Assembly (NCBI GenBank): GCA_025358925.1
Contig: JANYHT010000039.1
Coordinates: forward strand, 124,001 to 188,000
DNA length: 64,000 bases
Direction of reading: 5' to 3'
DNA from: Gemmatimonadaceae bacterium
Lineage (GTDB): Bacteria > Gemmatimonadota > Gemmatimonadetes > Gemmatimonadales > Gemmatimonadaceae
The notes beneath the pieces were generated by a model, which ran no database searches, had not been told where the DNA came from, and saw only the letters and a list, made by a program, of their open reading frames with translations. Both the position numbers and the translations under genes were made by a program. Below are positions 60,750 to 63,992 of this stretch, one piece after another. Position 1 is the first letter of the stretch, and the number at the start of each line of letters is the position of its first letter.

Positions 60750-61634
60750 TCAGTGCAGCGAGCGTTCGGCAGCGCGAACGGTATTTTTGAGTAACATGGC
60801 GATGGTCATCGGGCCAACGCCGCCCGGCACTGGCGTGATTCTAGACGCGACCTTTACGGCGCTCGCGAAATGCACATCGCCACACAGACGAGTGCCTTGT
60901 GCGCGAGTGGCGTCGGGCACGCGATTCATCCCCACGTCGATCACCACGGCGCCCGGTTTGATCATGTCACCCGTGATCATCTCTGCGCGGCCCGCTGCGA
61001 CGATGAGAATGTCGGCGCGACGCGTATGCGCCGACAAATCTCGAGTGCGGCTGTGACACACCGTCACGGTTGCATCCGCATGCGACCGACCTTGCATGAG
61101 TAACGCCGCCATCGGTTTTCCGACAATGTTACTTCGACCAATGATGACCGCCTCCGCACCACGCGTTTGCACGCCACTACGCACCAACAACTCAATCACT
61201 CCGGCTGGCGTGCACGACACAAAACCGTCGGTGTGGCCAATGAGCAATTTCCCGACATTAATTGGATGGAATCCATCCACGTCTTTGCGTGGATGAATGT
61301 GTCGAATGACGGTGTCTGGATCGATCTGCGACGGCAAGGGCATCTGCACGAGAATACCGTGTACCGTGCTGTCGGCGTTAAGCTGTTCGACGACGGCGAG
61401 TAGCGCAGCCTGCGATGTGGTCGCAGGCAAGCGGATCGTTGCACCGGACATCCCAGCCGAACGTGACGCTTTCTCTTTGCCACTGACGTATGTCGCGCTT
61501 GCGGCATCGTCACCAACCAGCACAACTGTCAAGCCCGGGACAACGCCCCGTGTCGTGAGGTCGGCGACGTCGCGCGCGACTTCAGCGTGAATCACTGCAG
61601 CGATTGCTTTGCCGTCAATAAGCTCAGCGAGCAA
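60750..61634 (-). CDS. folD: Bifunctional methylenetetrahydrofolate dehydrogenase/cyclohydrolase
   Basis: FolD interconverts 5,10-methylene-THF and 10-formyl-THF. The 294-residue protein has the catalytic lysine in [51 protein letters not shown] and the C-terminal [15 protein letters not shown]. The start is TTG 61634, 11 nt inside the end of rny; no other start fits the conserved N terminus. Confidence 0.96.
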
Positions 61635-63213
61635 AGTCTACCGCTCGACTCTCACGAATCACAACGACCTTAATTTGCCCCGGATATTGCAGCTCGGATT
61701 CTATTCGACGAGCGATCTCTTCCGACAGTGTTGTCATGCGCGCGTCGTCCACTTGTTCCGGCGTGACTACCACGCGCACCTCACGTCCCGCCTGAATCGC
61801 AAACACGCGCTCAACACCGCGATAACTCGAGGCAATCTTTTCAAGTCCCTCAAGGCGTTTGACGTACGTCTCGAACGCTTCGCGCCGCGCACCGGGACGC
61901 GAGCCGGAAATCGAGTCAGCCGCTTGAACCAGCACCGACACTTCGCTCTCGTGCGGCACGTCATCGTGGTGCGCGGCAATGCAATTCACCACGAGTGGGT
62001 TTTCCCCGTACTTCGTCGCAACCTCAACGCCGAGTTGCACATGCGTTCCTTCATGCTCGTGCGTCAATACTTTCCCGACATCGTGCAGGATCGCACCGCG
62101 CTTCGCGAGCGCAACATCGAGTCCAAGTTCTGCCGCCATCATACCGGCGAGCCACGCAACTTCTTTCGAGTGATTGAGAATGTTTTGTCCATAACTGGTG
62201 CGCCACCGCATACGTCCAATCAGCTTGATGAGCTCGGGATGCAACCCGACCACACCAACTTCGTACGCCGCTTGCTCACCCGTTTCAACGATCATCACCT
62301 CGACTTCTTTGCGCGCCTTGGCCACAACCTCTTCAATGCGGCCTGGATGGATTCGCCCGTCACTCACCAATTTCTCGAGCGCAAGGCGCGCCGTTTCGCG
62401 GCGCACCGGATCGAAACACGACACCACCACCGTGTCGGGCGTGTCGTCAATAATGACGTCCACGCCGGTCGCGAGTTCAAACGCGCGAATATTGCGACCT
62501 TCGCGACCAATGATACGCCCCTTCATCTCGTCGTTCGGCAGCGAGACGGCCGAGACTGTCGTTTCGGCCGTAGTTTCTGCGGCAACACGCTGTACAGCGA
62601 GCGCAACGATTTTCTTCGCTTCGCGCTCGGCGTTGCGCTTCGCGCTCTCGCGTATTTCTCGGAGCCGGGACGCTGCGTCGGCGAGTGCCGCATCCTCCAT
62701 GCGCCGCATCAGCTCCGTCTTCGCTGATTCGGCAGACAGCCCCGCCAATTGTTCGAGCCGGCGTCGCTCTTCCTCAACGAGGCGCGTGAGTTCGGTTTCC
62801 CGATCGTTGGAACGAAGTTCGCGCTTGCCAACGTCACCCAATCGACGCTGCATTTCGGTCTCGCGTCCCTCGAGTGATTCACGCGCCCGATCCAGCAATC
62901 CTTCACGTTCGAGCACGCGCTTCTCCTCGCGTTCGACGTCCCCGCGACGCTGCCGCATCTCTTGCTCGATGCCTTCGCGCAATTGCAAGATTTCTTCTTT
63001 ACCCGCCACGACGGCGCCTTTGCGCAACGTCTCAACTTCACGGCGCGCCTCATCCACAAGGCGAACCGCCATCTCTTCGCCCGTCGCCTTCGCTCGGCGT
63101 TGTTCGGCGACTTCTTCCTTTCGTCCCGATCGTCGTCCAACCGCGTGCCACACGACAGACGAGATCAGTCCCAGCGCGCCAGTGATGAGCGCGGCGAGGA
63201 GAGAATCTCCCAT
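61624..63213 (-). CDS. rny: Ribonuclease Y
   Basis: RNase Y is a membrane-anchored endoribonuclease that starts mRNA decay. The 529-residue protein has an N-terminal membrane helix ([20 protein letters not shown]), a long Glu/Arg-rich coiled coil (about 30-190), a KH domain ([28 protein letters not shown]) and an HD domain ([22 protein letters not shown]). It overlaps folD. The 204-nt upstream region is structured and may hold an RNA gene. Confidence 0.97.
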
Positions 63214-63236
63214 GGGGATCTATGCTCCACCGCGTC

Positions 63237-63411
63237 GGGGCGCGGATTCGTTGTGCGTTAAAAACACACCGGCGCTATCAGAGCCTCGATACATCGCAAA
63301 AACCAACGCGTTGTACCGGTAGCGGCACCCGCTGCGCCTTACAGCGTGAACGTACGGAAATGCTTGTCACGCCGCAACCTGCACCCTCTGCTGACAATCA
63401 TGCTGCGCCCC
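63237..63411 (-). ncRNA. Candidate 6S RNA (or structured rny leader)
   Basis: The gap between zapA and rny is 204 nt with no coding frame. On the - strand, GGGGCGC (63411-63405) pairs perfectly with GCGCCCC (63243-63237), spanning 175 nt. After a symmetric 7x7 internal loop, TTGT pairs with ACAA, and an inner GCGTGA/TCACGC hairpin follows. Size, end-pairing, large internal loops and position beside zapA (6S RNA often adjoins zapA and, in some phyla, lies between zapA and rny) agree with 6S RNA. I could not confirm the conserved 6S bubble sequence, and no terminator follows. Confidence 0.35.
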
Positions 63412-63417
63412 ATTCCT

Positions 63418-63726
63418 TTAACCGACGGCAGCGTCATCTCCCCGTTTCGCCGGTGGAAGCAACGGACGGATATCAGTGGCCAACTGCCGAATTTCACCTG
63501 CCAATGACGACGTCGCCGAGCGCTCGCGAAACAGCTCGTCCGTGATCTGCAGCGCTGCAAGAATCGCAGCTTTCTGCGTTTCCATTGATACTCCAGCTGC
63601 CAAGATGGCGCGAATGGTCCGGTCGACATGCTCGGCCACCGCTTGCGTGTGCTCGGCGGTCTCGTCGGTTCGCAGGGTGTACTCCTCACCGACAATACGC
63701 ACTCGGACCACACTCTTGCTTTCCAT
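63418..63726 (-). CDS. zapA: Cell division protein ZapA
   Basis: ZapA bundles FtsZ filaments at the Z ring. The 102-residue product has the N-terminal VVRVRIVGEEYTLRTDETAEHTQAVAEHVDRTIRAI, typical of ZapA, followed by a helix (AAILAALQITDELFRERS). ATG 63726 shares a base with the upstream stop (TGATG); GTG 63729 is also possible. It is followed by the structured zapA-rny interval. Confidence 0.9.
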   Translation of the reverse strand: MESKSVVRVRIVGEEYTLRTDETAEHTQAVAEHVDRTIRAILAAGVSMETQKAAILAALQITDELFRERSATSSLAGEIRQLATDIRPLLPPAKRGDDAAVG

Positions 63727-63992
63727 CACCGTTCTGCCCCGGCGGTCATCTGTTGACGGAGGAAACGCACCCGTTCGACCATTTGCGCTGTGCGATCACG
63801 AGCCTCGGCCAGCCGCGCGCGCAATCGCGCATTCTCTGCTAAGAGCGCCGTCTCCACAGGCGACGCCTCACCTTTTGCAATGGCGGCGGCCGCCGCGGCA
63901 CTCGCCACATCAGCGGCTCGACGCTCGGCCAACATCGCTTCCGCCAAATCTCGCGCGAGCGTCATGCGTTGCACGGCGTCCTTGAGCGCCAT
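63726..63992 (-). CDS. Coiled-coil protein, ZapB-like
   Basis: The 88-residue product is almost entirely alpha-helical: MALKDAVQRMTLARDLAEAML, an Ala-rich stretch, then heptads ALLAENARLRARLAEARDRTAQMVERVRFLRQQ. ZapB-like coiled coils often precede zapA, so a divisome role is inferred. The gene may be complete, because an upstream out-of-frame TGA (63996-63994) could be the stop of the preceding gene outside the window. Confidence 0.6.
   Translation of the reverse strand: MALKDAVQRMTLARDLAEAMLAERRAADVASAAAAAAIAKGEASPVETALLAENARLRARLAEARDRTAQMVERVRFLRQQMTAGAER

Follow-up and report, generated by a model that had tools for sequence, protein, structure and literature searches.

The zapA-rny gap of a Gemmatimonadaceae genome: very probably a conserved promoter and rny leader, not a 6S RNA gene

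Does the zapA-rny gap of a Gemmatimonadaceae-like genome hold a 6S RNA gene, or the leader of the rny message? The window, a stretch of 64,000 nucleotides (G000:C35:124001-188000), carries both genes on the minus strand. Named relatives of its RNase Y belong to Gemmatimonadota MAGs and Roseisolibacter, and the protein has the Pfam domains RNase_Y_N, KH and HD.

63418-63729, minus strand: zapA, the upstream gene (Pfam ZapA PF05164, 63.8 bits)
61624-63213, minus strand: rny, encoding RNase Y, the downstream gene (NCBIfam TIGR03319 RNase_Y, 676 bits)

The genes are separated by 204 nt without a plausible open reading frame; an earlier note on this DNA had likewise seen no frame in the gap. Only one close relative aligned to the gap DNA from end to end (94 % identity); in other relatives short patches matched, mainly just upstream of rny. 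A search of phage DNA with the zapA-rny locus gave no match.

The earlier note had proposed a possible 6S RNA over 175 nt of the gap, with reference to the common neighborhood of 6S RNA and zapA. The published linkage of these genes concerns beta- and gammaproteobacteria (PMC7641849). In Desulfacinum, a Syntrophaceae MAG, another deltaproteobacterial MAG and a Nitrospirae MAG, the Rfam model for 6S/SsrS RNA (RF00013) has above-threshold matches immediately ahead of rny; the order in the Syntrophaceae locus is zapA (1012-1311), 6S RNA (1325-1519) and rny. Within the same phylum, a family of another class (f11) has a 6S match between zapA and rny in five of six genomes. The f11 loci L301, L303, L304, L305 and L306 scored 30-43 bits with RF00013, just under the cut-off, and 6S RNA may go unannotated there. 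The synteny argument is sound for these lineages, not for the class of the window, in which the genomes compared had no 6S match near rny. The simplest reading is that 6S RNA left the zapA-rny gap in this class.

For the gap itself, the covariance search proposed in the earlier note was negative: RF00013 had no match in 62800-63800 even at an E value of 10. Rfam at gathering score detected no 6S RNA in the window, and RF00013 none in the window's own genome. At gathering score RF00013 also missed the 6S RNA in all 149 relatives, with sub-threshold matches (13-27 bits) in 19 of them. Eighteen of these matches were inspected and proved to be one conserved RNA, with a bubble, an apical hairpin and two stems, an inner one and a closing one that bears compensatory changes; in most cases a terminator-like hairpin follows downstream. 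The RNA contains UGAGCCGAUA; E. coli 6S RNA has this sequence as well, in its central bubble (5' strand). From the weak Rfam matches a family-specific 6S model, R1, was built, which recovers a 6S RNA in 142 of the 149 genomes that the Rfam threshold misses. R1 is supported as a 6S model because it also matches the zapA-rny 6S RNAs of another class (36.4, 21.7, 19.0 and 16.9 bits), which RF00013 recognizes independently. In the family the 6S gene adjoins queD (23 of 30 loci) and folE (24 of 30), several of these loci being truncated. A literature search, with subscription papers mostly outside its scope, found no description of 6S RNA in Gemmatimonadetes. In the window's own genome R1 detected one 6S RNA, on a different contig:

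G000:C38:55031-55179 (locus L170, 1501-1649), minus strand: 6S RNA of the window's genome (R1, 134.7 bits, E 4.6e-27), next to queD/folE, with a terminator-like hairpin downstream

Upstream of this gene, TTGCGC-N18-TAGCTT was read from the sequence, the same promoter style as for rny. With filters off, R1 reached at most 7.4 bits in 62800-63800, compared with 134.7 bits for the C38 locus. About 80 loci upstream of rny in the window's class were also searched with R1 for a decayed 6S RNA; nothing credible was obtained, the best score being 14.1 bits (E 0.48). A 6S RNA gene in the gap was rejected because the only detectable 6S RNA of the genome lies elsewhere.

The gap has a different content, a promoter pattern followed by the leader of rny:

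63372-63377, minus strand: predicted -35 element TTGCGG, part of the pattern TTGC-N19-TANNNT with a spacing of 17 nt
63349-63354, minus strand: predicted -10 element TACGTT of the same pattern, with a transcription start placed at about 63340-63343
63214-63343, minus strand: putative 5' leader (about 129 nt) of the rny message, from the presumed start (about 63342) to the rny start codon
63324-63338, minus strand: small hairpin GGCGC-AGCGG-GTGCC near the 5' end of the leader
63230-63245, minus strand: hairpin CCGCG-CCCCGA-CGCGG, with one nt between it and the Shine-Dalgarno sequence
63217-63228, minus strand: Shine-Dalgarno GGAG and ATAGATC ahead of the rny ATG, conserved in nearly all leaders of the family

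The pattern TTGC-N19-TANNNT, with exactly 17 nt between the hexamers, was present in all 28 gaps studied (26 of the same genus and two of the nearest genus), compared to a mean of 0.055 and a maximum of 1 in shuffled sequences. Leaders of sister genera carry TTG-N19/20-TA...T in 38 of 40 cases. A simple sigma-70 scan missed the site, since it required a closer match to TTGACA/TATAAT. As features of the sequence the promoter pattern and the position of the leader behind it are clear; transcription would start near 63342. No intrinsic terminator was detected on the minus strand between promoter and rny, thus the transcript should continue into rny.

The structural argument for 6S RNA had been a stem that closes the gap:

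63405-63411, minus strand: 5' arm of the closing stem (GGGGCGC), upstream of the -35 element and not conserved
63237-63243, minus strand: 3' arm of the closing stem (GCGCCCC), inside the Shine-Dalgarno-proximal hairpin

The 7-bp stem exists as described (63411-63405 with 63243-63237), and so does the inner pairing of TTGT (63397-63394) with ACAA (63254-63251) across a 7x7 internal loop. The observation holds but carries little weight, being barely above chance. Of 1000 gap sequences shuffled by dinucleotide, 9.1 % had a perfect stem of 7 bp or more with a span of 150 nt or more, and 29 % had one with a span of 100 nt or more. The fold of the 175 nt had a z-score of -1.83, matched by 10 of 200 shuffles and obtained with ends that were picked post hoc; the z-score of the whole gap was -0.50. 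If the entire gap were one RNA, the closing stem would have a pair probability of 0.99. In the 94 % identical relative (L052) the stem is down to 6 bp, and in the other 24 of the 26 same-genus gaps it is out of register; several of these have different GC-rich pairings predicted between the same two regions. Compensatory changes were sought in the same-genus gaps and none was found, leaving the stem without covariation support. Its 5' arm is located ahead of the -35 element and, if the promoter start holds, would be transcribed only in readthrough from zapA. Such readthrough, with the 5' arm included, is possible. The occupation of the same gap by 6S RNA in a sister class of the phylum and in Desulfobacterota, together with pairings expected to form in a single RNA covering the whole gap, is the case for a 6S RNA here. 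Against it, the gap has no 6S sequence, no bubble and no conserved closing stem, and a model that detects 6S RNA in 142 of 149 relatives has no credible match in the rny-upstream loci searched in this class; a 6S RNA with the 7-bp stem at its ends and a length of about 175 nt is extremely improbable. We have little doubt that the gap consists of a conserved promoter and the leader of rny.

Within the window's genus the length of the leader stays within about 80-170 nt, and its body has little covariation. The Shine-Dalgarno-proximal hairpin takes the same place in all 26 same-genus leaders and in most of the family, its arms differing greatly in sequence. Its mean stem is 5.6 bp in the genus, compared to 2.9 bp in shuffles, and 6.3 bp in the family, compared to 3.7 bp. 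For the window, folding of the leader gives this hairpin a probability of about 0.1, and folding of the whole gap gives it 0; we treat its formation there as no more than likely. The small hairpin at the 5' end is a weak candidate that occurs in the window's subclade of five with GC/GU changes only. A leader peptide was considered and rejected: a single-base difference shifts the longest candidate frame in the nearest relative, so it is not conserved. In L056-L076, one subclade of the genus, a second copy of ATAGATC followed by CGATC is located about 55 nt before rny; it is absent from the window's subclade. A second promoter at this repeat was dismissed, as no -35 partner was visible by eye and the motif is missing from the window's subclade.

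The rny leaders of other Gemmatimonadaceae genera contain, judged by covariation, a structured RNA that matches no known family. A core CGUAGGU-nn-AAGC...GUUAGC is followed by a long hairpin of about 14 bp with the loop CUUCGUC. Two-sided changes were observed for 11 of 14 pairs, and 82.5 % of positions were paired, compared to 25-46 % when the partners were slid. A recount on 40 matches and three further loci gave 91.9 % paired cells and 104 two-sided changes, in an alignment that had been fitted to the model. A model of this element, R2, was searched in 395 whole genomes of the phylum and gave about 70 strong matches (>45 bits), all within the Gemmatimonadaceae. In genomes outside the model building, 40 of 40 matches were in sense and 70-126 nt upstream of the rny start, with a promoter just upstream in 38. 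Examples are L079 (1332-1405) and L080 (1327-1400), with other rny-upstream loci in L081-L124 and L181-L220; in most genomes the element is single-copy. It had no match in Rfam, and a literature search that left subscription papers mostly outside its scope found no rny-leader motif in Gemmatimonadetes. The leader of the window was rejected as a member: R2 had no match in the gap, in the window's own genome or in its genus.

As an alternative to 6S RNA, the earlier note had suggested an autoregulatory leader for RNase Y. Its anatomy is borne out by the promoter, the leader and the covarying element of the sister genera, while the regulation of rny would follow by analogy. A sigma-70-type promoter, TTGCGG-N17-TACGTT (63377-63349), would drive a transcript that starts near 63342 and has about 129 nt of leader before the rny coding sequence; next to the Shine-Dalgarno sequence a conserved hairpin may form. 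Free RNase Y might cut this leader, as in B. subtilis, and the cut would lead to decay of the message, so that the level of RNase Y would match demand. The B. subtilis enzyme is autoregulated: it cleaves its own message, in part within a 164-nt 5' UTR behind a sigma-A promoter (PMC10303841). The two leaders belong to the same gene, are of comparable length (164 nt and about 129 nt) and follow housekeeping-type promoters. Cleavage of leader and early coding region was demonstrated for B. subtilis, whereas here we infer it; the leader is AU-rich there and GC-rich in the window, and the sequences are unrelated. For E. coli, autoregulation of RNase E through a stem-loop of the rne 5' UTR is cited in PMC10303841. 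The element of the sister genera resembles it in principle, being a structured leader of a main decay endonuclease, but enzyme family and structure are both different.

The feedback step is drawn from the homology of the gene and from the layout, not from the sequence of the leader, and we give feedback through the window's leader an even chance. The window's genus is without the structured element of its sister genera and has little covariation in the leader body, and folding disfavors the Shine-Dalgarno hairpin in the window itself; these points speak against a feedback leader. The absence of that element would agree with a plain promoter and 5' UTR, in which the promoter lets rny be expressed independently of zapA and the leader of this genus is not regulatory. 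The promoter is also far better conserved than the leader body. However, the maintained leader length, the recurrence of the Shine-Dalgarno-proximal hairpin with changing sequence and the clear conservation of a structured leader in sister genera argue against a passive UTR, which we regard as somewhat unlikely. The dedicated promoter after zapA would also suit a small RNA of another type, released before rny by processing or termination; the minus strand offers no intrinsic terminator and the genus no conserved body for such an RNA, and it appears highly unlikely. Taken as a whole, the reading of the gap as promoter and leader and not 6S RNA, with the leader acting as a feedback device for RNase Y, is moderately favored.

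The assignment sets right a likely mis-annotation: the zapA-rny gap is a natural site for 6S RNA, but in the class of the window 6S RNA resides elsewhere. The main interest, a new leader element and a displaced 6S gene, lies outside the window. Tentatively, and with the odds rather against it, the rny leader of the Gemmatimonadaceae may be a cis-regulatory RNA of a new class, reporting the activity of RNase Y or of general decay; it would have arisen where a sister class has its 6S RNA, and in the window's genus a different leader would have replaced the structured core for the same job. The locus raises the question how RNase Y controls its own level outside the Bacillota, for which the undescribed covarying leader element may serve as test case.
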